Of a stretch of 64,000 nt of DNA, positions 38,296 through 51,655 are shown piece by piece. The notes beneath the pieces were generated by a model that saw only the letters and a program-made list of their open reading frames with translations, was not told where the DNA came from and did no database searches. The stretch is from Rathayibacter oskolensis (GTDB lineage: Bacteria > Actinomycetota > Actinomycetes > Actinomycetales > Microbacteriaceae), in assembly GCF_900177245.1 (NCBI RefSeq), contig NZ_FXBM01000004.1, positions 186,001-250,000 on the forward strand, written 5' to 3'. The position numbers and the translations under genes were made by a program. The first letter of the stretch is position 1. Each line of letters opens with the position of its first letter.

Positions 38296-39780
38296 TCAGA
38301 CCGTGGTGCGCTCGGTCTCGGACGGCGTGGGCTCCTCGGTGGCGCGGGAGTCGGTGAGGGACAGCGAGCCGACCGTCGCGATCACGCCGACGAGGACGGC
38401 GACGGCCAGGTAGACGACCCGCTCGCCCGCGAAGAAGGAGTGGACGAGGTCGGAGCTCCACGCGCCGGTCGGAAGGCTCTTCGTGACCAGGGCGGCGATG
38501 AGGGTGCCGACGACGGCCGTGCCGAGGCTGGTGCCGAGCTCCTGGGAGGTGTCGTTGAGGGCGGCGCCGATCGAGGTCCGGTTCTCGTCCATCGCCTCGA
38601 CGAGAGCGACCGCGCAGATGGTCATGATCGTCCGCAGACCGATCGTGAGCAGCACCATCATGGCGGCGATCGCGAGGTAGCCCTGATCCACCGCCCAGGC
38701 CATGCCGAGCAGTGCGCCCACCAGCAGCGCGGTGCCGACGAGGCAGGCCAGGCGGTGGCCGAGGCGGGCGGCGAGCTGCTCGGCGATCGGGGTCGCGGCG
38801 ATCATCGTGACGATGACGGGCAGGTTCGCGAGGCCGGCCTGCATCGGGCTCCAGCCGTAGGCGTACTGGAAGTGCAGGATCAGACCGAACAGGACGCTGG
38901 CGAAGGCGACCGAGGCCGCGAGCTGCGTGAGCGCCGCGCCTCGCACGGGTCCGGTGCGGAAGATCGCGAGGTCGATCATGGGCGAGGCTGCGCGACGCTC
39001 CCGGAGGATGAACCCGACGACCGCGGCGACGGTGCCGGCAGCGCAGGCGAGCGTGACGAGCGAGAGCCAGCCGTCCTGCACGCCGCTGGTGAGGGTGTAG
39101 CAGCCGAGCCCGATCGCGGCGACGGTGAGGGCGGCGCCGGGCAGGTCGAGCCGCTCGGAGGTCAGGTCGGCGCGCCGGTCGGCCTGCACGCCGACCCGGA
39201 CGCCGATCCAGGCGATCAGGGCGATGGGGGCGTTGGCGAGCAGGAGCCACTGCCAGCTGAACTGGCTGAGGACGCTCCCGCCCAGGATCGGACCGAGGAC
39301 GAACCCGGACATGCCGACGATCATCACGATCGTGATCGAGCGCATCCGGAGCTTCTCGTCGTCGAAGAGGCGGAAGATCAGCGACATCGTGACGGGGGCC
39401 ATGGCCGCCGCGGCGAATCCGAGCGCTGCGCGCAGGGCGATGAGCTGGCCGATGTCGGTGACGAGGACGACGGCGAGGCTGATCAGACCGAACGCCGCGA
39501 GGCCGGTGAGCAGGACGCGGCGTCGGCCGAACCGGTCGGCGGCCGACCCGGCGGTGAGCAGCAGTCCGCCGAAGGTGAGGGAGTAGGCGCCCGTCACCCA
39601 CTGCAGTCCCGCCGTCCCGCTGTCGAGCGAGCGGCCGATCGTCGGCAGGGCGATCGAGAGCAGCGTGTTGTCGACCATCTCGACGAAGAAGGCCAGGCAG
39701 AGGGCGGCCAGCGGGAGCGCTGCGGCGCGTAGCGAGGTGTAGGCCGGGGGCTTGGTGGAGCTGATCGTGAGTGCGCTCAT
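38296..39780 (-). CDS. MFS drug transporter, DHA2 (14-helix) family
   Basis: A 494-residue exporter. The first helix shows FFVEMVDNTLLSIALPTIGR, a DHA2 hallmark, followed by WVTGAYSLTFGGLLLTAGSA and the GRRR loop. The C-terminal region has GAALNDTSQELGTSLGTAVV, typical motif C-like sequence of the family. The ATG at 39780 follows AGGAGGT. It is divergent from a TetR gene with several matched half-sites between them, a standard regulator/efflux pair. Drug or solvent export is expected; the substrate is not known. Confidence 0.92.
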   Translation of the reverse strand: MSALTISSTKPPAYTSLRAAALPLAALCLAFFVEMVDNTLLSIALPTIGRSLDSGTAGLQWVTGAYSLTFGGLLLTAGSAADRFGRRRVLLTGLAAFGLISLAVVLVTDIGQLIALRAALGFAAAAMAPVTMSLIFRLFDDEKLRMRSITIVMIVGMSGFVLGPILGGSVLSQFSWQWLLLANAPIALIAWIGVRVGVQADRRADLTSERLDLPGAALTVAAIGLGCYTLTSGVQDGWLSLVTLACAAGTVAAVVGFILRERRAASPMIDLAIFRTGPVRGAALTQLAASVAFASVLFGLILHFQYAYGWSPMQAGLANLPVIVTMIAATPIAEQLAARLGHRLACLVGTALLVGALLGMAWAVDQGYLAIAAMMVLLTIGLRTIMTICAVALVEAMDENRTSIGAALNDTSQELGTSLGTAVVGTLIAALVTKSLPTGAWSSDLVHSFFAGERVVYLAVAVLVGVIATVGSLSLTDSRATEEPTPSETERTTV

Positions 39781-39791
39781 CGCGGACCTCC

Positions 39792-39848
39792 TATCGAACG
39801 CCGTACGACTATCGGACGACGTTCGATAACATAGAACCACGTTCGATA
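39792..39848. promoter_or_regulatory. TetR operator cluster of the MFS/TetR promoter
   Basis: The half-site TATCGAACG or its complement CGTTCGATA occurs at 39792-39800, 39820-39828 and 39840-39848. A one-mismatch copy TATCGGACG at 39810-39818 forms a 9-1-9 palindrome with 39820-39828. The two CGTTCGATAACAT copies are direct repeats 20 bp apart. Confidence 0.7.
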
Positions 39849-39859
39849 ACATGCAAGAC

Positions 39860-40615
39860 ATGGCTGCAGATCGATCGAAGGAGACCGGGCGCGCCGGTGC
39901 ACCGCCCGCTCGCGCCCGGGGCCGTCAGCGGGCGTCGCACTCGCTCGACACGGTGCTGGGGGAGGCCATCGCGATCCTCGACGAGTCCGGGGAGCCGGCG
40001 CTGACCTTCCGGGCGCTGGCTGCACGCCTCGGCGGCGGCGTCGCGAGCATCTACTGGTACGTCGGGAGCCGCGACGAGCTGCTCGACCGGGCGACCGAGG
40101 AGGTGATGGGCCGGGTCCTGGAGGAGAGCGAACCGCTCACTCACGGGCCCGACCCGATGGCCAACCTGCGTGCGCTCGCCCTCGCGCTGTTCGACGAGTT
40201 CGTCCGCCGGCCGTGGTTCGGCCAGTTCATGCTCCGCAACAACGGGCTGCAGCCCAACTCGATGGCGATGTACGAGCGGATCGGCCAGCAGCTCATGAGG
40301 CTGGATCTGACGCCGCGGCAGCGCTTCCACGCGGCGTCGTCGATCGTGAGCTACGTCGTCGGCGTCGCCATCGACCTGGCCCAGCCGCCGCCGCCCGAGT
40401 TCCTCGAGAGCGGGCTGGACAGGCTGGAGTTCCTGGCCGTGTTCGCCGACCGCTGGCGCGACCTCGACCCCGAGGCGTTCCCCTTCGCGCACCAGGTCGC
40501 CGACGAGATGGCCGTGCACGACGACCTCGACGTGTTCCGCTCCGGACTCGATCTGCTGCTGGACGGGCTGCGGCTGCAGGCCGGGCTCTGGCCCGCCTCG
40601 CGGCCGCCCGGCTAG
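39860..40615 (+). CDS. TetR-family regulator of the DHA2 transporter
   Basis: A 251-residue regulator. After a basic N-terminal extension (ARARGRQRASHSL) the helix-turn-helix reads EAIAILDESGEPALTFRALA, then RLGGGVASIYWYVGSRDELL (residues ~30-75); a TetR_C-type ligand domain follows. The ATG at 39860 lies seven bases after TAACAT (39847-39852), fitting a leaderless promoter overlapping the operators; an ATG three codons earlier is possible. Divergence from the MFS gene makes that gene its probable target. Confidence 0.88.
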   Translation: MAADRSKETGRAGAPPARARGRQRASHSLDTVLGEAIAILDESGEPALTFRALAARLGGGVASIYWYVGSRDELLDRATEEVMGRVLEESEPLTHGPDPMANLRALALALFDEFVRRPWFGQFMLRNNGLQPNSMAMYERIGQQLMRLDLTPRQRFHAASSIVSYVVGVAIDLAQPPPPEFLESGLDRLEFLAVFADRWRDLDPEAFPFAHQVADEMAVHDDLDVFRSGLDLLLDGLRLQAGLWPASRPPG

Positions 40616-41034
40616 TCGTCCGTCGGACGCCGCCGCTGCCGCTTGGTCGCCGAGCGCTGCTGCTTGGCTGCGAGATGCCGTCGTGCGGAGCCGCGCGTGG
40701 GCCGGGTGACGCGACGGGGCGCGGCGGGAGGGGCCAGTGCATCGCGCACCAGGTCGCCGAGCACCGCGAGGGCGATCTCACGATTGCGCAGCTGAGACCG
40801 CTGCTCCGACACCGTCACGGTGATCGTGCCCGACACCAGTCGCTGGGCGAGCCGCTCGAGGACGCGGGTGCGCTGCTCGTCGCTGAGCGTCGGCGACTCC
40901 GCGGCGTTCCAGGACAGCTGCACGCGGCTGTCGGAGGTGTTGACGTGCTGCCCGCCGGGACCGGAGGACCTCGAGAACTTCCACTGCAGCTCGGAGGCCG
41001 GAACGACCAGCCCCGAACCCACCTCGAGATCCAC
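40612..41034 (-). CDS. arfB: Ribosome-rescue peptidyl-tRNA hydrolase ArfB
   Basis: A 140-residue release-factor-like protein. The catalytic GGQ is at residues 27-29 in SSGPGGQHVN, in a domain equivalent to RF domain 3, and a long basic tail (RRHLAAKQQRSATKRQRRR) would reach into the empty mRNA channel of a stalled ribosome. It frees peptides from ribosomes stuck at the ends of broken messages. The length matches ArfB/YaeJ. Its last four bases overlap the convergent TetR gene. It belongs to core translation and has no link to its neighbours. Confidence 0.93.
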   Translation of the reverse strand: MDLEVGSGLVVPASELQWKFSRSSGPGGQHVNTSDSRVQLSWNAAESPTLSDEQRTRVLERLAQRLVSGTITVTVSEQRSQLRNREIALAVLGDLVRDALAPPAAPRRVTRPTRGSARRHLAAKQQRSATKRQRRRPTDD

Positions 41035-41070
41035 GCGACTAGAGTCGCACGCTCCACCCGGCGGAGGGTG

Positions 41071-41193
41071 TCAGTTGTACTTGATCCCGCAGACCGGGCA
41101 CTTCCGGTAGCTCGCGGGGGTCATGATCTCGGTGCCGCACCCGCGGCAGATGTAGGGCTCACGGGATCGGAAGGTGGACGGGACGGCGGCCAT
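41071..41193 (-). CDS. Small zinc-ribbon protein
   Basis: A 40-residue protein with two C-X2-C pairs: Cys16/Cys19 (YICRGCGTEI) and Cys32/Cys35 (RKCPVCGIKYN). It is a complete rubredoxin-like or zinc-ribbon knuckle with a short unstructured start. AAAGGA precedes the ATG at 41193. Comparable orphan zinc-ribbon miniproteins are common in actinobacteria but have no assigned role. Confidence 0.72.
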   Translation of the reverse strand: MAAVPSTFRSREPYICRGCGTEIMTPASYRKCPVCGIKYN

Positions 41194-41284
41194 GAGGGTC
41201 CTTTCAACGGTGGAGTCGACCCCGGGACAGGGTGCCTCAAAGTACCGGCCGATAACGGCGCGGAACAAGGGGCACAGAGCGGAA

Positions 41285-41530
41285 TCACCTGGTCGTCGGA
41301 TGGATCGACGTCACCCGCGGCAGCTGCAGCTCCTCCGCGATGCGGCTGAAGGCCGCGAGGGCCTGCTCGTTGGTGATGCGGCCGGTGTCGACGCCGTCGG
41401 CGATCCGGAGCACGTCGAGCTTCCGCGTCGCGCGCGCCGAGGTGGCCAGATCCGCGGCACCGATCGCGGCCGACGCGCGGACCCGCGCGACGATCGTCCC
41501 TACCTGCCACCGTCTGCTGGTGAACGCCAT
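41285..41530 (-). CDS. Hypothetical 81-residue protein
   Basis: A small helical protein with a basic first half (RRWQVGTIVARVRASAAIG) and a second half reading GRITNEQALAAFSRIAEELQ. No family is recognised. GAGGAGA before the ATG supports translation. It lies between the zinc-ribbon gene and the MdaB-like gene on the same strand, 27 bp after the latter, so it may be the tail of that operon. Confidence 0.55.
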   Translation of the reverse strand: MAFTSRRWQVGTIVARVRASAAIGAADLATSARATRKLDVLRIADGVDTGRITNEQALAAFSRIAEELQLPRVTSIHPTTR

Positions 41531-41557
41531 GCACTCTCCTCGTGTCCGCTGCCGGTC

Positions 41558-42214
41558 CTATCGGCTACCGGATGCTTCGGAGCGACGGCGGGGACTCGAT
41601 TGGACGCTCGCGCCGTCTCCCAGCATCGCGAGCTGCCGGTCGAGGTGCGGGCCGTAGCCCTCGAGGCGCTCGGCGATGTCCGCGGCGCGGAAGATGTCGT
41701 GGATCCCGTAGCTCTCGAGGACGGTGAAGCCGACGAACCGGTAGGCGGCGGTGATCCCGAGCAGCAGGTCGTCGACTCCCTTGCCGGCGAAGAGCACGCT
41801 GTCGGGGTTGCCGAAGGACTCCGAGGGAGCGTTCCAGGTCGCGGCGACGAGGAACCCCCTGCCGTGCAGGTGGCCGCCGGTGCCGTACTGGCGGCTGGGG
41901 TCGGCGCGGGTGCGTCCGTCGTTGTCGAGGAACTCGGTGCTGTGGAGTCCGGCGTTGAAGACGGCGTCGATGTAGCGCTTGTGGATCCAGGGGGCGCCGA
42001 ACCAGTTGATCGGGGTCTGCAGGATCACCAGGTCGGCCTCGAGGTGCCGCTGCACCTCCGCCTCCGGGTCGTAGCCGTCCTCGACCCTGGTCTCGGTGAC
42101 GTCGTGGCCGCCGGCTCGGAGGTGCTTCGTCGCCCTGTCGGCCATCGCGCGGTTGAGAGCGCCCTCCGTCCAGCCCGGGTAGGTCAGGTGCGCGCTGATG
42201 ATGTGGATTCTCAC
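41558..42214 (-). CDS. MdaB-like NAD(P)H:quinone oxidoreductase (flavodoxin fold)
   Basis: A 218-residue flavoprotein of the MdaB/NQO family. It starts with RIHIISAHLTYPGWTEGALN (FMN/FAD loop), shows ADLVILQTPINWFGAPWIHK and YGTGGHLHGRGFLVAATWN, as in modulator of drug activity B, and reduces quinones by two electrons. The GTG at 42214 gives the family start. The tandem palindromes at 42319-42343 lie 105 bp upstream, between it and a small membrane-protein gene, so it is probably part of the TetR regulon defined by those sites. Confidence 0.87.
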   Translation of the reverse strand: MRIHIISAHLTYPGWTEGALNRAMADRATKHLRAGGHDVTETRVEDGYDPEAEVQRHLEADLVILQTPINWFGAPWIHKRYIDAVFNAGLHSTEFLDNDGRTRADPSRQYGTGGHLHGRGFLVAATWNAPSESFGNPDSVLFAGKGVDDLLLGITAAYRFVGFTVLESYGIHDIFRAADIAERLEGYGPHLDRQLAMLGDGASVQSSPRRRSEASGSR

Positions 42215-42318
42215 GGGTCTCGGTCCTTCTGCGGCACACCGTGTGCCGACGACTCCCGTGTCTAGTCGCCCGGGGCCGGGCGCTTCAACGAGACCAGGTG
42301 TCGGCGAGGACACCTTCT

Positions 42319-42343
42319 GGTCGTTTGACTTGGTCAACTGACC
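42319..42343. promoter_or_regulatory. Tandem TetR-type operator, copy A
   Basis: GGTCGttTGACT (42319-42330) and GGTCAacTGACC (42332-42343), start points 13 bp apart, in the gap between the MdaB-like gene and the small membrane-protein gene. TTGACT (42325-42330) and TACGGT (42347-42352) give a possible promoter spanning the second site. Confidence 0.7.
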
Positions 42344-42377
42344 TGATACGGTGGACCCACGCCAGGAGTCCCCTGAC

Positions 42378-42611
42378 GTGTCGATCGAGAGGACCACCGT
42401 GCTCAGACGACTGGGAGCGATCATCGGGATCGCGGGCATCGCCCTCGGTCTGGCCGGCGTTCTGTGGGACACGCTCCTCCCGACTCCCGACGCGAACATC
42501 GGCGCCGGGCTCCTCCTGCTGATCGGGCTCCCGCTGACGATCATCGGGGTGGTCCTGCTCGTGCTCGCCGCGGTGATCGACCTGCGGTCGGGAGGTCAGA
42601 GGCGCAGGTAG
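42378..42611 (+). CDS. Small two-helix membrane protein
   Basis: A 77-residue protein with two hydrophobic segments (LGAIIGIAGIALGLAGVLW and AGLLLLIGLPLTIIGVVLLV) separated by a short Pro/Asp-rich loop. The GTG at 42378 is chosen because AGGAG lies nine bases upstream; a GTG at 42351 is an alternative. It overlaps the end of the convergent SDR gene by 16 bp. The operator pair directly upstream links it to the TetR at 44160. Function unknown. Confidence 0.65.
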   Translation: MSIERTTVLRRLGAIIGIAGIALGLAGVLWDTLLPTPDANIGAGLLLLIGLPLTIIGVVLLVLAAVIDLRSGGQRRR

Positions 42612-43369
42612 GAGGCACCGTTGGCGTCGAGGACGGCCCCGGACGACCAGGCGGCCTCGGGGGAGGCGAGCCAGAACGCCGCGGCGGCGACGTCCTCGGG
42701 AGGGCCGACGCGGTCGAACGGACTCTGAGCGCGGAGAGCATCGCCCTCCGGGCCGTCGAGCTTGGCGAGCTGCCGAGGCGTCGCCACGAAGCCGGGCGCC
42801 ACCGAGGTGACCGAGATGCCGTGCGGCGCGAGAGCGACGGCGAGGGACTGCCCGAGGGCGTGCAGTCCCGCCTTGCTCGCCGCGTAGGCGGGGTACTCCG
42901 GCTCACCGCGGAACGCTCCGCGGGATCCGATGGCGACGATCGATCCCGCTGCTCCTCGGCCGATGAGGTGGTGGGCGACGGCCCACGCGAGGTTCGCCGC
43001 GCCGAGCAGGTTGACGTCGATCATCTGCCGGAAGGCCGCGCCCCACTCCTCGTAGGACGTCTCGCTGATCGCGTGCCGGTTGGCGGCCGATGGTGCGACC
43101 GCGGCGTTGGCGATCAGGACGTCGATCGATCCGAGCGCCTCGACCGCCGACGTCACGAGCGCGGTCACTCCGGCCGGGTCGCCGATGTCACCGGAGACGA
43201 GCGCATGCCCGTCTCCCTCGAGGGAGGCGAGGGTCCGCTCGGCGCCGAGCCGGTTGCCGGCGTAGTGGACGGCCACCCGGTCGCCCGCCTCCGCGAACCG
43301 TCTCGCGACAGCGGCGCCGATCCCTCCAGAGGCACCGGTCACCAGGACGGTCCTCGTGGTCGTCGTCAT
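42596..43369 (-). CDS. SDR-family oxidoreductase
   Basis: A 257-residue classical SDR. TGASGGIGAA (residues 11-20) binds the cofactor, VHYAGNRLGAE suggests NADP preference by the Asn-Arg after the second strand, LIANAAVAP is the NAG-type motif and PAYAASKAGL carries Tyr-X3-Lys. It is divergent from a GNAT gene at 43526, and the operator pair at 43464-43488 lies between them. Its 3' end overlaps the small membrane-protein gene. It is a close architectural match to the SDR at 51682. Confidence 0.91.
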   Translation of the reverse strand: MTTTTRTVLVTGASGGIGAAVARRFAEAGDRVAVHYAGNRLGAERTLASLEGDGHALVSGDIGDPAGVTALVTSAVEALGSIDVLIANAAVAPSAANRHAISETSYEEWGAAFRQMIDVNLLGAANLAWAVAHHLIGRGAAGSIVAIGSRGAFRGEPEYPAYAASKAGLHALGQSLAVALAPHGISVTSVAPGFVATPRQLAKLDGPEGDALRAQSPFDRVGPPEDVAAAAFWLASPEAAWSSGAVLDANGASYLRL

Positions 43370-43463
43370 GTGTCTCCCTCACGGATCGGGCGTGGAGCGG
43401 TGTCGTCGCCGCGTCGGGGAACGCCGACCCTCTCGCGGTCATTCTCCTCCGAGTCCCCCTACT

Positions 43464-43488
43464 GGTCATATGAACTGGTCAGATGACC
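43464..43488. promoter_or_regulatory. Tandem TetR-type operator, copy B
   Basis: GGTCAtaTGAAC (43464-43475) and GGTCAgaTGACC (43477-43488), the same 13-bp register as the copies at 42319 and 44806. It lies between the divergent SDR and GNAT genes, followed by TGATATGTT. Confidence 0.75.
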
Positions 43489-43525
43489 TGATATGTTGGA
43501 GACCTCGAGATGAAGGAGGATCGCG

Positions 43526-44179
43526 GTGTTCGTGATCACCCCGGCCTCTGCGGCCGATGTCCCCGCGGCGGCCGCCGTCCTCGCCTCCGCGTTCTCCGAC
43601 GATCCCGTCATGGGCGCGTTCGTCTCCGGGCGGGATGCACACCGCCGGTTGGAGACGGTCTTCCGCGTCCTCCTCCGGTCCGGAGCCCTGCGGGACGGCC
43701 GCGTCGACCTGGCGCCTCGCGAGCCCGGGGGAGAGATCCTCGGCGCGACGATCTGGGAGCGGCCCGGGCAGAGCCCCTCGCTCCTCCTCCTGGCGCGGAG
43801 CATGCCGGCCCTGGTGGGAGTGCTCGGCGTCCGGGGACTCGTCGCGGGTGTTCGCCTCGGGAGCACCCTGGCCCGATTCCGCCCGGCCGAGCCGCACTGG
43901 CACCTGACCCACATCGGCGTCGGGCCGGGCGGTCGCGGCCGGGGGGTGGGGTCGGCGCTCCTGTCGTCGCGACTCGCACGGATCGACGACGAGAACGCGG
44001 CGGCCTACCTGGAGTCGTCGAACGAGCGCAACCGCGCGCTGTACCGGCGGCACGGCTTCGCCACGATCGCACTGATCACCGGCGTGAGCGGAGCCGCACC
44101 CGCGGCCATGTGGCGGAGCCCGTCGTCCGTCCGCGAGCCCCGTCAGGACGGCGCGCTGTCTACTCCTCCGAGCTCTTAG
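43526..44179 (+). CDS. GNAT-family N-acetyltransferase
   Basis: A 217-residue acetyltransferase. The acetyl-CoA loop is VGPGGRGRGVGSALLSSRLA (~residues 131-150), and LESSNERNRALYRRHGFATI is the conserved C-terminal helix-strand. The first part (PASAADVPAAAAVLASAFSD) fits puromycin-acetyltransferase-like members. AAGGAGGA precedes the GTG at 43526. It overlaps the end of the convergent TetR gene by 20 bp. Through the operator at 43464 it is likely induced together with the SDRs and the quinone reductase. The substrate is unknown. Confidence 0.88.
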   Translation: MFVITPASAADVPAAAAVLASAFSDDPVMGAFVSGRDAHRRLETVFRVLLRSGALRDGRVDLAPREPGGEILGATIWERPGQSPSLLLLARSMPALVGVLGVRGLVAGVRLGSTLARFRPAEPHWHLTHIGVGPGGRGRGVGSALLSSRLARIDDENAAAYLESSNERNRALYRRHGFATIALITGVSGAAPAAMWRSPSSVREPRQDGALSTPPSS

Positions 44180-44783
44180 GCGATCCGGGAGTGCCGGCGA
44201 GAGCGTTCTCGAGCAGGTGCGACAGCAGGGGGATCGCTGCCGCGCGATCGGGATCGCCGGGGTCGGCCAGCTCGGCGAGGGTCAACCCGTCGAACACGGC
44301 GAGGACGAGCGCCGTGAGTGCTCGGGAGCCCCCCGGCAGCTGGGCGTCGGCCGCCTCGTTCCAGGGGCGGAGCGCCGCGGAGGACGCTTCGGAGTAGGCG
44401 GCGTACTGCTCCCGCGCGAGGTGCTGCAGCCCCTCCGTGCGGAGGGAGTGGGTGGTGACCTCGACGAGCGCGATCTGGCGGGCCGTCGAGACCGCCGTGA
44501 CCCGCTCCCAGATGCCGGCCAGCCGCGCGGTCAGGGTGTCGTCGGCGTCGCCCTCCGCGATGCCCGCGCGGACGTCGGCGATGAGCACCTCGATGACCCC
44601 TGCCAGCAGATCCGCCTTGTCGGTGAACCAGTAGTGCACGGTGCCCAGCGGGAGCCCCGCCTCGCTCGCCACGCGCCGCGTGGTGACGGCCGCGATCCCC
44701 TCCCGCTCGACGACCGCTGCCGCCGCCCGCAGCAGCGCGTCTCTCGTCTCGGAACCGCGCTGTCGTCCTGTTCGCTCTGCCAT
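44160..44783 (-). CDS. TetR-family regulator (BetI-like), proposed regulon controller
   Basis: A 207-residue regulator. The helix-turn-helix reads AAAVVEREGIAAVTTRRVAS, then AGLPLGTVHYWFTDKADLL (~residues 20-60), and the C-terminal domain resembles TetR_C_6/BetI-like regulators. The ATG at 44783 is used; an in-frame ATG at 44879 would extend through the operator. It is divergent from the SDR at 44900, and its promoter contains the same tandem palindrome as the promoters at 42319 and 43464. It is therefore the best candidate to control the MdaB-like, membrane-protein, SDR and GNAT genes as well as itself. Confidence 0.88.
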   Translation of the reverse strand: MAERTGRQRGSETRDALLRAAAAVVEREGIAAVTTRRVASEAGLPLGTVHYWFTDKADLLAGVIEVLIADVRAGIAEGDADDTLTARLAGIWERVTAVSTARQIALVEVTTHSLRTEGLQHLAREQYAAYSEASSAALRPWNEAADAQLPGGSRALTALVLAVFDGLTLAELADPGDPDRAAAIPLLSHLLENALAGTPGSPKSSEE

Positions 44784-44805
44784 GCCTCCATCATGGCAGA
44801 GAACT

Positions 44806-44830
44806 GGACAGTTGACTTGGTCGTATGACC
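44806..44830. promoter_or_regulatory. Tandem TetR-type operator, copy C
   Basis: GGACAgtTGACT (44806-44817) and GGTCGtaTGACC (44819-44830), again 13 bp apart, between the TetR gene and the divergent SDR gene. Followed by AGATAGAGT as copy A is by TGATACGGT. Confidence 0.7.
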
Positions 44831-44899
44831 AGATAGAGTGAGCAGCGCGCCGGAAGGTGCGCCCACCCCCCTCCCGCACCGAGATCTCTGGAGATGCAC

Positions 44900-45757
44900 A
44901 TGTCGCTGATCGCTACGGCCCCCCTCGCTGGACGGATCGCTCTCGTGACGGGAGCCGGACGCCCGAGGGGGATCGGACGGAGCATCGCTCTGGCCCTGGC
45001 GGACGCCGGCGCCGACGTCGTCGTGACGGATGTGGGCAGGGCCCGCGCGGATCTGGAGGTGGGCGGCGCCGGCCTGGGTGACGACCCCGCCGACCTGGAG
45101 GAGTCCGCGGCTCTGGTCCGCCGGCGCGGCCGGCGGTCGCTGGCGGTGGGCCTCGACGTGACCGACGAGGAGGCGGTCTCCGCAGCGATCGACAGGGTCC
45201 GCAGCGAGTGGGGCGTCGTCGATGTGCTGGTGAACAACGCGGGGACCGGGGTGGGCACAGGGCCCTTCCTCGACGTCACCGATGCGCAGCTCGGCGTCTC
45301 GTGGCAGGTCAACGTCCTCGGGCAGGTCCACCTCGCCCGGGCCGTGCTCCCCGGGATGATCGACGCGGGCCGCGGATCCATCGTCAACATCGCCTCGACG
45401 ATGGGCCTCGCCGCTGCCGGCGGCTACGGCGGCTACGTGCTGGCCAAGCACGCCATCGTGGGCCTGACCCGGCTGCTCGCGCACGAGTTCGGAGGCCGGG
45501 GGATCCGGACGAACGCGGTCGCGCCGGGCTACATCTTCACCGACCTCGGCGAGGCCGAGCTGCGTCTGACGGCCACCCGGCTCGGGATCGATGAGGGCAC
45601 GGCACTGGAGGCGATGCTCTCCGAGATCCCCCTCGGTCGCGCGGGCACTCCGGAGGACATCGGCGCCGCCGTCGCGTGGCTCGCCGGTGACGGTGCCGGA
45701 TTCGTGAACGGCGCCGTGCTGCCGGTCACCGGCGGGCAGCCCGCCGGGCTCAACTGA
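44900..45757 (+). CDS. SDR-family oxidoreductase
   Basis: A 285-residue SDR. The cofactor motif is TGAGRPRGIGRS with a three-residue insertion, NNAGTGVGTGPF follows, and the catalytic Tyr-X3-Lys is in GGYVLAKHAIVG. The C-terminal GAPGY-type loop is APGYIFTDLGEAEL. The ATG at 44900 has GGAG six bases upstream, better placed than the ATG at 44894. It is divergent from the TetR gene and likely its target. A DUF2855 gene follows after 57 bp on the same strand. Confidence 0.9.
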   Translation: MSLIATAPLAGRIALVTGAGRPRGIGRSIALALADAGADVVVTDVGRARADLEVGGAGLGDDPADLEESAALVRRRGRRSLAVGLDVTDEEAVSAAIDRVRSEWGVVDVLVNNAGTGVGTGPFLDVTDAQLGVSWQVNVLGQVHLARAVLPGMIDAGRGSIVNIASTMGLAAAGGYGGYVLAKHAIVGLTRLLAHEFGGRGIRTNAVAPGYIFTDLGEAELRLTATRLGIDEGTALEAMLSEIPLGRAGTPEDIGAAVAWLAGDGAGFVNGAVLPVTGGQPAGLN

Positions 45758-45814
45758 GGGGCCTGGGGGCCCTGATCGAACTCCGACCGACCTGACCACG
45801 AAGGAGCGATCGCC

Positions 45815-46921
45815 ATGACCGTCCACACCGCCACCACCTTCGAGGTGCGCCTCGACGATCCGCTCGGGAGTTCGCGCCTGCTCACCGAGACGCTGCGCGA
45901 GCCGGAGCCGGGAGAGATCGTGCTCGAGGTCGAGAGGTTCGGGCTCACGTCGAACAACCTCACCTACGCGCTCCTCGGCAACGAGACGCCGACGCGCTAC
46001 TGGGACGCCTTCCCCGCCGCGGACGGCTGGGGGAGGGTTCCCGCCTGGGGCTCTGCGCGGGTGATCGACGGCGACGAGTCCGTCGCACGCCCTGGCGAGC
46101 GGTTCGTCGGGCTGCTGCCCATGGCCGACCGCTTCGTCTTCGCCGGCCGGCGTGCCGAGGACGGCGTGCTCGTCGGCTCGGCCACCGGGCGGAACGCGAT
46201 GCCGTCGATGTACCGGGACCTGCACCGGGTCGAGGACGAGGATGCGGCGCAGGGATCGGCGGCCGAGGTCCTCCTCCGCCCGTTCTTCACGTTCGCGGCC
46301 CTGCTCGCGCGCGAGGTGAGCGACGGCGGTGCCGAGACGGCGGTCGTGACGAGCGCCTCGAGCAAGGCGGGCCTGCTGCTCGGCCGGCTCCTCCAGCAGG
46401 GCGGCGTGCGAACGGTCGGCCTGACGGCGGCGCCCCGGGTCGCGGCGACGGAGTCGACCGGCGCGTTCACCGAGGTGAGGTCGTACTCCGACGTGTCCGG
46501 CCTGACGGCGGAGGGCCGGACCGTCCTCCTCGACATCGCCGGGAACGCGGAGGTGTCGTCGGCGGTCGCTCGGCAGCTGTCGGACGACCTCGCTCGCATC
46601 ATCGTCGTCGGGGCGACGCACCACGACGCGGCCGCGGGTGCGGCCGAGCCCGACGACTCCCCCTCGCCCGAGGTCGACCTGTTCGACACCGCCGAGCACG
46701 AGGCGGGATACAGCGAGGAGCACGGAGCCGCGGCTCTCCGCGCCCTCGAGGACGACGCCCGCGAGGCGCTCCTCCCCTGGGCCTCGCGCTGGATCCAGCT
46801 GGACGAGGTCGAGGGCGTCGGCAGCCTCGAGGAGGCGTGGAGGACGGTGCAGGAGCCGCCGGCGTCCCCCCTCCGCGGCATCGTCGTCACCGCCTCGCCG
46901 CGCCGGGGGGATCCGCGATGA
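45815..46921 (+). CDS. DUF2855 family protein
   Basis: A 368-residue protein matching DUF2855, which has a medium-chain-dehydrogenase-like layout but no assigned reaction. Landmarks are ERFGLTSNNLTYALLGNETP near the N-terminus, RYWDAFPAADGWGRVPAWG, and a nucleotide-fold region TAVVTSASSKAGLLLGRLL (~residues 174-192). ACGAAGGAG precedes the ATG. It follows an SDR gene and may act on the same metabolite. The downstream membrane-protein frame begins around its stop codon. Confidence 0.88.
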   Translation: MTVHTATTFEVRLDDPLGSSRLLTETLREPEPGEIVLEVERFGLTSNNLTYALLGNETPTRYWDAFPAADGWGRVPAWGSARVIDGDESVARPGERFVGLLPMADRFVFAGRRAEDGVLVGSATGRNAMPSMYRDLHRVEDEDAAQGSAAEVLLRPFFTFAALLAREVSDGGAETAVVTSASSKAGLLLGRLLQQGGVRTVGLTAAPRVAATESTGAFTEVRSYSDVSGLTAEGRTVLLDIAGNAEVSSAVARQLSDDLARIIVVGATHHDAAAGAAEPDDSPSPEVDLFDTAEHEAGYSEEHGAAALRALEDDAREALLPWASRWIQLDEVEGVGSLEEAWRTVQEPPASPLRGIVVTASPRRGDPR

Positions 46922-46949
46922 CCGCCGCACCCTCGCCGTCCGCGCGGGC

Positions 46950-47450
46950 GTGCTCCTCGGGCTCGCGGGAATGGCGGTCGCGTTCTTCATGACCGCGGGG
47001 CCCACTCCGTCGCAGGCCGCCGACTTCGAGGGCATCATGGGTGCGCATGCGGTCGGCGTGGAGGACGGAGGGCCCGGAGTGCCGTTCTTCGGGTGGAGCA
47101 CCGAGGCCGGTGATCTGCGCGCACCCCACTTCGTCGGGATGCACGCCCTGCAGGCGATCCCGCTCGGGCTGCTCGCCCTCGAGCTGCTGAGCGGTCGCGT
47201 CGCCGTGCTGCGCTCGGTGCGAGTGCGGTTCCGGCTCGTCCTGGTGGGCTCGTCGGCCTTCGCGGCGCTGCTCGGGATCCTGACCTGGCAGGCTCTCGCG
47301 GGCGAGTCGGTGATCGCCCCGAGCGGGCCGATCCTCCTCGCGGCTGCCGTCGCTGTCGTCGCGGCCGCCGGCGCTGCGGCCGCCGTTCTCGTCGCAGCGC
47401 ACCGGAGGACGGCGCACGAGGTCGGATCGGCCGGGGGCGTGCGACGGTGA
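46950..47450 (+). CDS. Membrane protein, probably truncated at its N-terminus
   Basis: About 166 residues with four hydrophobic segments. It contains MAVAFFMTAGPTPSQA, AHAVGVEDGGPGVPFFGWST and APHFVGMHALQAIPL, a block that in related actinobacterial membrane proteins, as far as I recall them, follows about 100 additional N-terminal residues with more helices. Here the frame runs back into the DUF2855 gene with no good start: GTG at 46950 and ATG at 46971 both lack ribosome sites, and the ATG at 46918 is in another frame. A 5' deletion or early frameshift is likely. The last four bases overlap the next gene. Confidence 0.55.
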   Translation: MLLGLAGMAVAFFMTAGPTPSQAADFEGIMGAHAVGVEDGGPGVPFFGWSTEAGDLRAPHFVGMHALQAIPLGLLALELLSGRVAVLRSVRVRFRLVLVGSSAFAALLGILTWQALAGESVIAPSGPILLAAAVAVVAAAGAAAAVLVAAHRRTAHEVGSAGGVRR

Positions 47451-48169: not shown

Positions 48170-48246
48170 CCGGGGTCGGACGACGAGAGCGTGGGCTCCG
48201 GCAGACGAACACCATGCCGGGAATATCTCGATTCAAGCTTTGTTTA

Positions 48247-48261
48247 CTGTAGTGACTACAG
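48247..48261. promoter_or_regulatory. Probable HxlR operator
   Basis: CTGTAGTGACTACAG is a perfect 6-3-6 inverted repeat 13 bp before the HxlR start, in an AT-rich promoter stretch (CTTTGTTTACTGTAG). Autoregulation is inferred. Confidence 0.65.
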
Positions 48262-48274
48262 AAAAGAGAGTGGC

Positions 48275-48694
48275 ATGGAGGAAGAGTTCGTCGTGGAGCG
48301 CACACTGCACCACGAAGAAGCAGAGGACGGCGCGTGCCCCTCGTTCATCGCGGCGATGGACGTCGTGGGCCGGCGCTGGAGCGGCCTGATCATCGAGGCC
48401 ATCGGCCGGGGCAACTCGGGCTTCGCCGACATCGGGCGCTTCGTCGCCCACATCGGCGACACGATGCTCGCCAAGCGCCTCCGCGAGCTCGAGACCGACG
48501 GCCTGATCGAGCGGGAGGTCGTCGACGGGCGGCCCATCAGGGTCCGCTACTCGCTCACTCCCGCGGGTCGCGCGCTGCAGGTGATCCTGCAGGACCTGAC
48601 CGCGTGGGGACACGCCTACGCCCTGATCGAGAACGCGCCCCCGGCATCACCCCAGGACGTCTCACCACAGCACACAGAGCAGACGAGGAACTGA
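48275..48694 (+). CDS. HxlR-family redox regulator, YodB/CatR-like
   Basis: A 139-residue winged-helix regulator. Its start of domain reads CPSFIAAMDVVGRRWSGLII, the same arrangement as the N-terminal sensing cysteine of YodB and CatR (CPK...LLGKRW), here Cys21. Those proteins sense quinones and diamide through that cysteine and repress reductases. The recognition region is IGDTMLAKRLRELETDGLIE. It is followed after two bases by a luciferase-like monooxygenase gene and then an FMN reductase gene, a fitting regulon, with the palindrome at 48247 upstream. Confidence 0.88.
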   Translation: MEEEFVVERTLHHEEAEDGACPSFIAAMDVVGRRWSGLIIEAIGRGNSGFADIGRFVAHIGDTMLAKRLRELETDGLIEREVVDGRPIRVRYSLTPAGRALQVILQDLTAWGHAYALIENAPPASPQDVSPQHTEQTRN

Positions 48695-48696
48695 CC

Positions 48697-49752
48697 ATGC
48701 CGTTCGAACTCGGAATCCTCACCTTCGGTGAGCTCACCACTGATCTGTCGACCGGGACGATGCCGTCACCGGTCGAGCGGATGGAGCAGACGCTGGAGCA
48801 GGCGCGCCTCGCCGACGAGGTCGGGCTCGACGTCTTCGGCGTCGGCGAGCACCACCGCTCCGACTTCATCGCGTCCGCGCCCCACATGGTCCTGGCCGCC
48901 GCGGCGGCGCAGACCGAGCGGATCAGACTCACCAGCGGAGTCACCGTGCTCAGCTCGGAGGATCCGGTGCGGGTGTTCCAGCACTTCGCGACCCTCGACC
49001 TGATCTCGCACGGTCGCGCCGAGATGATCGCCGGCCGCGGCTCCTACACGGAGTCGTTCCCGCTCTTCGGCTACTCGCTGGACGACTACGCCGCTCTCTT
49101 CCGCGAGAAGCTCGACCTCCTCCTCGCGATCCGCGCCGAGAACCCCGTCACCTGGAGCGGCTCGCTGCGGCCGCCGCTCCGGGGGGCCGACATCGCGCCG
49201 CGCCCGATCGGCGAGCTGCCGATCTGGGTGGGAGTCGGCGGCACGCCCGCCTCGGCGATCCGCACCGGTCAGCTCGGCCTCCCGATGGCGCTGGCGCTCC
49301 TGCTCGGACCGATCACCCAGTTCACCCGCCCCGTCGACCTCTACCGCCGGGCCGCCTCGGAGGCCGGGCACGACCCCGCCGCGCTGAGGGTGAGCATCAA
49401 CGCCCACGGCCTGGTCGGGAGGACGAGCCAGAGCGCGCGGGACGACTTCTTCCCCTACTTCCGTCGCGGCCTGCGCGAGAACAACCATCAGCGCGGAGCA
49501 GGGTTCGACATCCCGCGCACGGCTTTCGACGCCCAGGCGACTCCCGGCGGCGGCCTCCTGGTCGGCAGCCCGCAGGAGGTCATCGACAAGCTGCTCACCT
49601 ACCACGAGCTCTACGGAGTCACCCGGGCGGTCTTCCAGATGGGCTTCGGCGGCCTGCCCCAGAGGGAGCACCTCGAGGCGATCGAGCGCCTCGGCACCGA
49701 GGTAGCGCCCGTCGTGCGGCGCGAGCTCCGCTCCGAGCAGGACGCGGCGTGA
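48697..49752 (+). CDS. LLM-class flavin-dependent monooxygenase
   Basis: A 351-residue luciferase-like TIM-barrel protein. It opens with FELGILTFGELTTDLSTG, followed by DVFGVGEHHRSDF, the run LTSGVTVLSSEDPVRVFQHF and MIAGRGSYTESFPLFGY, which together match the LLM subfamily exemplified by Agrobacterium structure 2I7G. These enzymes use reduced FMN to oxygenate small substrates. The FMN reductase encoded next, overlapping by four bases, would supply the reduced flavin. It forms one operon with the HxlR gene upstream. The substrate is unknown. Confidence 0.9.
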   Translation: MPFELGILTFGELTTDLSTGTMPSPVERMEQTLEQARLADEVGLDVFGVGEHHRSDFIASAPHMVLAAAAAQTERIRLTSGVTVLSSEDPVRVFQHFATLDLISHGRAEMIAGRGSYTESFPLFGYSLDDYAALFREKLDLLLAIRAENPVTWSGSLRPPLRGADIAPRPIGELPIWVGVGGTPASAIRTGQLGLPMALALLLGPITQFTRPVDLYRRAASEAGHDPAALRVSINAHGLVGRTSQSARDDFFPYFRRGLRENNHQRGAGFDIPRTAFDAQATPGGGLLVGSPQEVIDKLLTYHELYGVTRAVFQMGFGGLPQREHLEAIERLGTEVAPVVRRELRSEQDAA

Positions 49753-50294
49753 CCTCGCCGCTGCGCGTCGTCGTCGTGAACGGCAGCCCGACCGCCCGCT
49801 CCAAGACGATGGGCCTCGTCGGCCTGGTCACCGCCTCCCTCGGCGCGAAGGTGCCGATCGAGCTGCATCGGATCGATGTCTACGGGCTCGGGCCGGGCTT
49901 CACCGGTGCGATCACCCGGGACGACGTCCCCGCCGAGGTCGAGGCCGAGATCGCGGCGGCCGAGAGCGCCGACGTCCTGATCGCCGCTACTCCGGTGTAC
50001 CGCGCGTCGTCTCCCGGCATCTTCAAGCACTTCTTCGACCTCGTCGGCCAGTACGCCCTCGCGAACAAGCCCGTCGTCCTGGTGGCGACGGGCGGGAGCG
50101 ATCGCCACGCGCTGGTGATCGAGCACGAGCTGCGCCCGTTGTTCGGCTTCTTCCAGGCCGCGACGATCCCGATCGGCTTCTACGCGAACTCGGGCGACTT
50201 CGACGGCGAGCTCGTGCTCGACAGCGAGGTCTACAGCCGCATCGAGGTGGGTCTCTCGGACGTCATCGACCAGTTCCGCCGGCTGCGGGCGTAG
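49749..50294 (+). CDS. NADPH-dependent FMN reductase, MsuE/SsuE type
   Basis: A 181-residue flavodoxin-fold reductase. VVVVNGSPTARSKTMGLVG binds flavin phosphate, and ATPVYRASSPGIFKHFFDLV followed by VATGGSDRHALVIEHELRPL is the signature of the MsuE/SsuE branch, which feeds FMNH2 to alkanesulfonate-type monooxygenases. The GTG overlaps the monooxygenase stop (GTGA). The pair probably acts as a two-component oxygenase under HxlR control. Its end overlaps the convergent cupin gene by 32 bp. Confidence 0.92.
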   Translation: MTSPLRVVVVNGSPTARSKTMGLVGLVTASLGAKVPIELHRIDVYGLGPGFTGAITRDDVPAEVEAEIAAAESADVLIAATPVYRASSPGIFKHFFDLVGQYALANKPVVLVATGGSDRHALVIEHELRPLFGFFQAATIPIGFYANSGDFDGELVLDSEVYSRIEVGLSDVIDQFRRLRA

Positions 50295-50679
50295 CGTCGT
50301 CGGCGCGGTGCCGCTCCTGGGCCTCGATCGGCACCGTGCCCGCCACGACGACATCGCCGGTGTGAGCCGTCGTGACGGTCTCGATCAGCACGATCTCGAC
50401 CTCCTCCTCGGCGACGGGGTTGTGCCGCACTCCGCGGGGGACGACGTAGAACTCTCCGGGCTCGAGACGGACGTCCGGGCGATCCTCGAACTGCAGGAGG
50501 AGCGAGCCCGAGACGACGAGGAACATCTCGTCCTCGGCGTCGTGCGCGTGCCACACCAGCTCGCCGAGCAGCTTGGCGACCTTCACGTACTGGTCGTTGA
50601 CCCGGCCGATCACGCGCGGGGTCCAGTGCTCGGTCACGTGCGCGAGCTCGGCGGCGACGCTGGTGCTGTTCTCATCCAT
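50263..50679 (-). CDS. Small cupin-domain protein
   Basis: A 138-residue single-domain cupin. The first motif is LVWHAHDAEDEMFLVVSGSL with the metal-type His-X-His and Glu, and the second is PGEFYVVPRGVRHNP with the closing His. About 25 residues of Pro/Ala/Asp-rich tail follow. Small cupins bind metal and act as isomerases, dioxygenases or sensors; nothing narrows the role. The ATG at 50679 is used. The gene overlaps the convergent FMN reductase gene and lies about 100 bp after the HxlR gene on its strand. Confidence 0.84.
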   Translation of the reverse strand: MDENSTSVAAELAHVTEHWTPRVIGRVNDQYVKVAKLLGELVWHAHDAEDEMFLVVSGSLLLQFEDRPDVRLEPGEFYVVPRGVRHNPVAEEEVEIVLIETVTTAHTGDVVVAGTVPIEAQERHRADDATPAAGGTGR

Positions 50680-50780
50680 GCGTCCACTCTCGCGCCCGCG
50701 CCCGGCCGGGAGCATCTCCTGCCGGCCACCGAGAAGGCGGGCGAGCTTTGTCGCGGCCCGCAACGACGGCCGCGCCCAGG

Positions 50781-51170
50781 TCACGCGTCCTCGACCGCGA
50801 CCTCCCGGTCGTAGTGGGCGCGAGCCTCCTGCACGGCGGGCAGGTTGCTGCTCGTCCACGAGAGCAGCGCGTCGATGAGCTCGTTCAGCGTGTTGCCGAC
50901 CGGAGCGATCCGGTACTCGACAGCGACGGGGCGCGTGGCCAGGACGACGCGCGAGATCATGCCGTTGCGCTCGAGTCGGCGCAGCGTCGCCGTGAGCGAC
51001 TTCTGGCCGATCGCGGGCACCGCGCGGCGCAGTTCGTTGAACCGCAGCGGCCCCTCGCAGAGCTGATCGAGGACCTGGAGGGACCACTTGTCGAGGAGCT
51101 CGTCGAGGAGCTCTCGGTGGGGAGCATCGACGAGGAGGAGGTCGCGGGACGCGCCGGAGGTGTCGCTCAT
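50781..51170 (-). CDS. HxlR-family transcriptional regulator
   Basis: A 129-residue winged-helix regulator: LLDKWSLQVLDQLCEGPLRF, then ELRRAVPAIGQKSLTATLRR (~residues 26-66). It lacks the N-terminal Cys-Pro of YodB-like proteins; its only cysteine is inside the DNA-binding domain. It is divergent from the RidA-like gene at 51245, with an inverted repeat at 51190-51222 between them, so it likely controls that gene and itself. The cupin gene downstream may belong to its operon. Confidence 0.88.
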   Translation of the reverse strand: MSDTSGASRDLLLVDAPHRELLDELLDKWSLQVLDQLCEGPLRFNELRRAVPAIGQKSLTATLRRLERNGMISRVVLATRPVAVEYRIAPVGNTLNELIDALLSWTSSNLPAVQEARAHYDREVAVEDA

Positions 51171-51189
51171 GGAACCTAGTCTCGTTGAA

Positions 51190-51222
51190 GTTCCCTGAGA
51201 ACACCAGGTAGAACAGGGGAAC
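51190..51222. promoter_or_regulatory. Inverted repeat, probable HxlR operator
   Basis: GTTCCC (51190-51195) faces GGGAAC (51217-51222) across 21 bases, with further matching TG/CA on the inner side. TAGAAC at 51209-51214 is a possible -10 for the plus-strand gene. Confidence 0.45.
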
Positions 51223-51244
51223 CACCTACCCGAACGGAGTCGCC

Positions 51245-51655
51245 ATGACCGTCAGCACCCTGTCCCCCGAGGGCATGTTCCAGCCCGTCCCCTACGACCA
51301 CGTCTCGATCGCGACGGGATCGCGGCACGTGCACGTCGCCGGCCAGATCTCGCGCGACGGCGAGGGCAACAGGCTCGCCCCCGACGACCTCGTGGGCCAG
51401 ATCGTGCAGGTGTTCCGCAACACCGCGCGCGGTCTCGCCGCCGCGGGGGCCACGTTCGACGACGTCGTCCGGCTGCGCTTCTTCCTCACCCGCTCGACCC
51501 CCGGGATGTTCGACGACTTCACGGCCGGCATCGAGCTCGCCGCGAAGGAGGTGGGCCTGCCGACCCCGCTGCCCCCGCTGTCGGCGATCGGGGTCGACTT
51601 CCTCTTCGAGCCCGACGTGCTCGTCGAGCTCGAGGCCTACGCCGTCCTCGACTGA
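51245..51655 (+). CDS. RidA/Rid-family protein
   Basis: A 136-residue protein of the YjgF/YER057c/UK114 fold. The core reads HVHVAGQISRDGEGN, VFRNTARGLAAAGATFDDVV and VRLRFFLTR, but the tail ends VLVELEAYAVLD, with Glu rather than the Arg-containing IEIEAVA of true RidA imine deaminases. The Arg that binds the substrate carboxylate (usually in VE-ARV-DLP) is not evident, so it probably belongs to a Rid subgroup with another role. It is divergent from the HxlR regulator. Confidence 0.87.
   Translation: MTVSTLSPEGMFQPVPYDHVSIATGSRHVHVAGQISRDGEGNRLAPDDLVGQIVQVFRNTARGLAAAGATFDDVVRLRFFLTRSTPGMFDDFTAGIELAAKEVGLPTPLPPLSAIGVDFLFEPDVLVELEAYAVLD

Follow-up and report, generated by a model that had tools for sequence, protein, structure and literature searches.

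Does a set of paired palindromes, repeated at three divergent promoters of a single gene cluster, represent one regulatory signature, and does this signature belong to the TetR-family repressor encoded beside the third of them? The question is raised by a 64,000-nucleotide stretch of Rathayibacter oskolensis DNA (hereafter, the window), in which the first-pass annotation had singled out two GGTCAnnTGACC-type units with starts 13 bp apart at each of three promoters, one near-perfect and one weaker, and had joined the flanking genes into one module.

Paired sites of the window and their gene neighborhood

The motif unit GGTCAnnTGACC was scored for mismatches throughout the window, and the pairs were read on the plus strand at all three promoters. 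Operator 1 (42319..42343) comprises the units at 42319 (GGTCGTTTGACT, two mismatches) and 42332 (GGTCAACTGACC, none); operator 2, lying before the GNAT gene (43464..43488), those at 43464 (GGTCATATGAAC, one mismatch) and 43477 (GGTCAGATGACC, none); and operator 3, situated between tetR and SDR2 (44806..44830), those at 44806 (GGACAGTTGACT, two mismatches) and 44819 (GGTCGTATGACC, one mismatch). The description of each pair as one near-perfect and one weaker unit was correct, the unit with more mismatches being the left one in 3/3 operators. Single GGTCAnnTGACC-like sites with at most two mismatches were not enriched in the window (27, vs. a mean of 33.6 in shuffles). For pairs at offsets of 1-40 bp with no more than three summed mismatches, the count in the whole window was three with a 13-bp offset and one with a 35-bp offset, the latter being composed of the unit at 42332 and a partner with three mismatches. 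Chance repeats are ruled out, as 13-bp pairs were absent from all 300 simulated first-order Markov windows, in which the pairs summed over offsets 10-30 had a mean of 0.06 and a largest value of 2. A repeat finder applied to positions 42200-45000, with the motif not supplied, aligned the same three operator regions over 51 bp, the other copies displaying 76% and 61% identity to the first one; the base composition of the window is 69-74% GC in 4-kb steps. The observation of three paired sites is confirmed.

The repressor gene (44160..44783, minus strand) encodes a 207-aa protein with TetR_N and TetR_C_31/TetR_C_6 domains above the Pfam cut-offs (38.5 bits for TetR_N, PF00440, vs. the cut-off of 24). 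Its structure model (mean pLDDT 88.4, ten helices) has an all-helical fold with a C-terminal sensor domain, and the best 50 matches of a fold search were led by TetR-type regulators with TM of about 0.5-0.7. The multidrug-type TetRs EbrR, QacR, RamR, EilR and EthR2 are among the fold neighbors of the model, which fits a drug-like ligand but does not show one. The leftward neighbors of operators 1, 2 and 3 are, respectively, the gene of an MdaB-like quinone reductase of the Flavodoxin_2 family (41558..42214, minus strand), that of the short-chain dehydrogenase SDR1 (42596..43369, minus strand), the regulation of both being uncertain, and tetR itself. To the right of operator 1 lies the gene of a 70-aa protein (42399..42611, plus strand), which matched no Pfam or NCBIfam family and shows two hydrophobic stretches by hydropathy, in agreement with its former designation as a two-helix membrane protein. 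Operator 2 is followed by the gene of a GNAT acetyltransferase (43526..44179, plus strand), and operator 3 by those of a second short-chain dehydrogenase, SDR2 (44894..45757, plus strand), and a DUF2855 protein (45815..46921, plus strand), which, judging from their spacing, probably share one transcript. Family searches and PDB matches upheld the earlier calls of TetR, the two SDRs, GNAT, DUF2855 and the MdaB-like protein. The latter matched PDB entries named Modulator of drug activity B with E 2.6e-39 to 4.6e-38, and no PDB relative of the DUF2855 protein was found by sequence. The GNAT matched puromycin N-acetyltransferase (PDB 7k09) with E 4.8e-16 over residues 7-201 and another GNAT structure (PDB 2qec) better, with E 1.2e-29; its relationship to puromycin N-acetyltransferase, as read from these alignments, is a sequence kinship and not a functional identity.

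Promoter-like elements fit all three blocks best at the identical offset, the -35 element beginning seven bases into the 27-bp block, the spacer being 16 bp long and the -10 element lying directly past the right unit. These elements are TTGACT (42325-42330) and TACGGT (42347-42352) at operator 1, ATGAAC (43470-43475, a poor match) and TATGTT (43492-43497) at operator 2, and TTGACT (44812-44817) and TAGAGT (44834-44839) at operator 3, and they all point rightward, to the 70-aa protein, GNAT and SDR2. The left unit reaches into the -35 region with its right arm, which may account for its weaker match, and the spacer is covered by the right unit. A blind promoter scan of positions 41000-47000 returned the promoter at operator 3 as the sole site above the threshold. 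The promoter register of the window was the best one in only 3 of 12 operators of other loci (L056, L057 and L059; L-numbers label loci in other genomes), and promoter overlap as a general feature of such operators is not established.

Several other regions of the window contain regulators or redox-related genes. The segment 34163-38044 encodes two low-molecular-weight phosphatases (arsenate-reductase-like), a thioredoxin reductase, an ArsR-type regulator and an FAD oxidoreductase, and looks like an arsenic or thiol cluster. At 38296-40615 an MFS transporter gene is divergent from a second TetR gene (TetR_C_1 type); the longest reading frames of the two genes share about 10 bp, hence the true starts are probably internal. 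Two HxlR-type regulators are located near an NADPH-dependent FMN reductase and a RidA-like protein at 48191-51655, a redox-type neighborhood.

Relatives of the repressor, their operators and the GNAT partner

In a search performed with the TetR protein alone against 396 genomes of one order (cut-off E 1e-18), 19 genomes yielded relatives, and the 250 bp preceding each of the 19 matches were scanned for the two-unit arrangement with any offset of 9-30 bp. All eight closer matches (44-58% identity) had their best-fitting pair at an offset of 13 bp, with a summed mismatch of 0-1, so that two neighboring palindromes per operator are found in these eight relatives as well as in the three operators of the window; shuffled upstream DNA equaled that 13-bp score in at most 0.5% of 200 shuffles per locus. 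At one of the eight (L029) a 12-bp offset was nearly as good, with one mismatch, and the eight are not independent, four of them originating from one small family of 13 genomes. Among the weaker matches (32-40% identity) a well-matched 13-bp pair was present in 2/11 (L041 and L042, with one mismatch and identical printed sites) and absent from 9/11, one of which (L040) had its best pair at 13 bp with a poor score, the remaining eight having theirs at other offsets. Among 293 genomes of the Streptomyces order there was one relative at the cut-off of E 1e-27, and this one had already been found by a pattern scan.

That scan of genome contigs for the operator pattern gave 13 loci. A TetR relative was found by BLAST within about 1 kb at seven of them (L002, L006, L008, L009, L011, L012 and L013), the paired site of L012 standing after the TetR gene, not before it. 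No TetR relative was found by BLAST at the other six (L001, L003, L004, L005, L007 and L010), and the pattern matches of L001 and L007 resemble simple repeats. The pair of the alphaproteobacterium Mesorhizobium xinjiangense (L005:4359-4383), beside which BLAST found no TetR relative, is well matched and lies near an SDR-like reading frame. A first contig scan with the TetR protein produced 269 stretches fitting the peptide pattern, none of which was confirmed as a relative.

Occurrence of the sites in whole genomes was determined using a degenerate 27-bp pattern with up to two mismatches, the reversed pattern serving as a control, in nine genomes possessing these TetRs (eight from the protein search and one from the pattern scan). 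Ten places had 0-1 mismatch, all of them at the TetR gene or, in the genome holding L053 (G130), also at the GNAT gene; three further places were found elsewhere, each with two mismatches, and the control matched nowhere. A single site per genome was counted in the ten genomes that represent 10 of the 13 loci of the pattern scan, and again none for the control. The genome scan for 13-bp pairs, which had been suggested as a check, thus returned well-matched places only at TetR or GNAT in the relatives' genomes, where, by this pattern count, such pairs are nearly unique. Considering that the 13-bp pair accompanies relatives identified from the protein sequence alone, in 8/8 cases at an identity of at least 44%, the assignment of the three paired sites to the TetR at 44160 is borne out, and they most likely constitute one regulatory signature belonging to this repressor.

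More distant TetR proteins encoded near this type of site have retained the DNA-binding domain better than the remaining sequence: those of L002 and L057 are identical to that of the window at 24/56 positions each in the DNA-binding domain and at 28/128 and 29/128 positions, respectively, in the rest. This is a weak hint that repressors responding to different inducers share one operator code, because TetR families in general conserve the DNA-binding domain more than the remainder.

A GNAT homolog was located within about 6 kb of the TetR gene in seven of the eight closer relatives (L048-L053 and L055; not L054). In G130, where some 5 kb separate the GNAT gene from tetR, the GNAT gene is equipped with a separate 13-bp pair, sharing 29/35 positions with the GNAT operator of the window, the two sibling operators of which share 27 and 24 positions with it in the same comparison. 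A search with GNAT alone detected 29 places in 27/396 genomes, and in ten of these a pair with no more than three summed mismatches precedes the GNAT gene (eight at 13 bp, two at 18 bp); a TetR relative is near all ten, seven in a short locus and three in a 19-kb stretch. No qualifying 13- or 18-bp pair was found before GNAT at the other 19 places, six of which still adjoin a distant TetR relative. Three-mismatch pairs with other offsets occur there at L088, where the 15-bp pair lies apart from the start of GNAT, and at L090 (23 bp, before GNAT); the remaining 17 places had none. Other enzymes accompany the pair variably: tetR and an FMO-like monooxygenase gene flank the operator at L052, L053, L055 and L056, aldehyde dehydrogenase genes are present at L052, L053 and L055, an SDR gene at L053, and an SMR-type pump gene follows GNAT at L057. 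On these gene neighborhoods, the recurring core consists of TetR and the puromycin-acetyltransferase-like GNAT, the latter being a likely target of the TetR in other genomes too.

The proposal of one module uniting MdaB, the membrane protein, the SDRs, GNAT and DUF2855 holds only in part: the GNAT linkage recurs, but MdaB as a conserved regulon member is unsupported, none of its four homologs (67-71% identity; 4 of 248 genomes) having the pair. The single homolog of the 70-aa protein in 179 genomes (E 8.9e-6) is also without it. The search for DUF2855 at E 1e-40 gave 0/198 genomes and contained no known positive, so this empty answer shows nothing. Three paired operators in one cluster were not found among 14 other stretches of 16.8-19.1 kb, which hold one or two. 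It is conceivable, although unlikely, that control by the TetR is limited to tetR itself, SDR2-DUF2855 and GNAT, operator 1 being an idle copy or the site of another regulator of the same type; besides the absence of the pair at the MdaB and 70-aa homologs, the promoter-like elements of operator 1 face away from MdaB. Against this, the right unit of operator 1 has stayed perfect, and operator 1 shares its promoter register with operators 2 and 3. MdaB and SDR1 may or may not be under TetR control, and a "detoxification" role is presumed here from the enzyme families.

Binding unit and proposed mechanism

The GNAT promoters of L052 (units at 2932/2950) and L055 (3199/3217) have two intact units 18 bp apart, the tetR promoters of the same loci keeping 13 bp, and upstream of the TetR relative of L054 (9223-9262) three units follow one another in a continuous 13-bp register, the first being weak. 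The 13-bp register, which had been regarded as fixed, is common to all three promoters of the window but is not the sole arrangement, the spacing being 18 bp at these two GNAT promoters and the number of units three at the TetR promoter of L054. The occurrence of intact units at different spacings suggests that the short palindrome TGGTCRnnYGACCA is the element bound by one dimer.

Alternatively, a single dimer could recognize a longer inverted repeat, either the central TGACC-T-GGTCA or the outer GGTC...GACC, and the pair would then be a by-product of symmetry, since two abutting palindromes always make a larger inverted repeat; an operator of about 27 bp has indeed been described as one inverted repeat for the TetR MAB_4384 (PMC5895659). 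We regard this reading as improbable, as it is disfavored by the 18-bp spacing of intact units in front of GNAT at L052 and L055 and by the third, weaker unit kept in register at L054, and the half-site spacing within one unit would better suit a single TetR dimer. That the repeats are merely shared promoter elements or chance similarity is hardly credible, for, although the left unit overlaps a TTGACT box in 2/3 sites of the window, the units persist at L048, L050 and L051 where this box is absent, which rejects promoter boxes alone as a full explanation, and they track TetR and are near-unique per genome.

Taken together, we consider it quite probable that the TetR encoded at 44160-44783 acts as a ligand-responsive repressor on the paired operators. 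Its binding site would be a pair of 14-bp units (about TGGTCRnnYGACCA) with a usual spacing of 13 bp, and it would occupy its own divergent promoter along with two more promoters in the cluster, two dimers being placed side by side on each paired operator. With the left unit on the -35 region and the right unit filling the spacer, RNA polymerase would be kept off the rightward promoters of the 70-aa membrane protein, GNAT and SDR2-DUF2855, tetR itself being probably repressed as well. A toxic small molecule would enter the C-terminal domain, whereupon the dimers would leave the DNA, allowing production of GNAT (presumably acetylating an amine) and the redox enzymes. We infer that the mechanism follows the usual TetR scheme, the paired operator being an orderly one, and most likely the locus is a small self-regulated detoxification regulon of a familiar type.

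More tentatively, and at somewhat short of even chances, the window might be an expanded member of a class of TetR-GNAT detoxification regulons that is scattered among actinobacteria and apparently undescribed. The operators of this class would consist of two or three intact 14-bp units at a fixed phase of 13 or 18 bp, the DNA-binding domains of the TetRs would be more alike than their sensor domains, and further redox genes would have been captured in the window by a copied operator-promoter cassette.

Comparison with known regulatory systems

Targets in further actinobacteria can be predicted from such a regulator-operator pair, the sequence code of which is recognizable, and the pair connects a sensor with an enzyme resembling puromycin acetyltransferase. 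Operators of the 13-bp, 18-bp and three-unit kinds form a natural series for studying cooperation of neighboring TetR dimers, and the regulator-operator pair is a possible inducible switch once the inducer is known. Among the literature matches listed for two-dimer TetR, GNAT, puromycin acetyltransferase and FMO regulons (open-licence full texts), no description of the regulon was found, and, judging by titles and abstracts, no TetR operator was among the open-licence matches listed for the operator sequence strings.

The GNAT of the window resembles puromycin N-acetyltransferase (7k09) by sequence kinship. In a study of Streptomyces TetR genes divergent from enzyme genes, such regulators repressed the neighbor (PMC3511530). 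The window shares with them a TetR gene divergent from an enzyme gene and a short intergenic region; however, the operators listed there have other sequences and contain no such 13-bp pairs, which also holds for the operator of SCO4099, adjacent to the acyltransferase gene SCO4098.

The closest parallels concern the operator. QacR binds its DNA as two dimers. Two dimers of DarR are reported to sit on a 20-bp operator, the second of them on a pseudo-palindrome with one poorer half-site (PMC10636190). The TetR fold and the two close palindromes, one of them weaker, are the features shared with the window, for which cooperative binding of two dimers is predicted from sequence; unlike in QacR and DarR, the palindromes of the window are complete, stand 13 bp apart with no interleaving, and have a different sequence.
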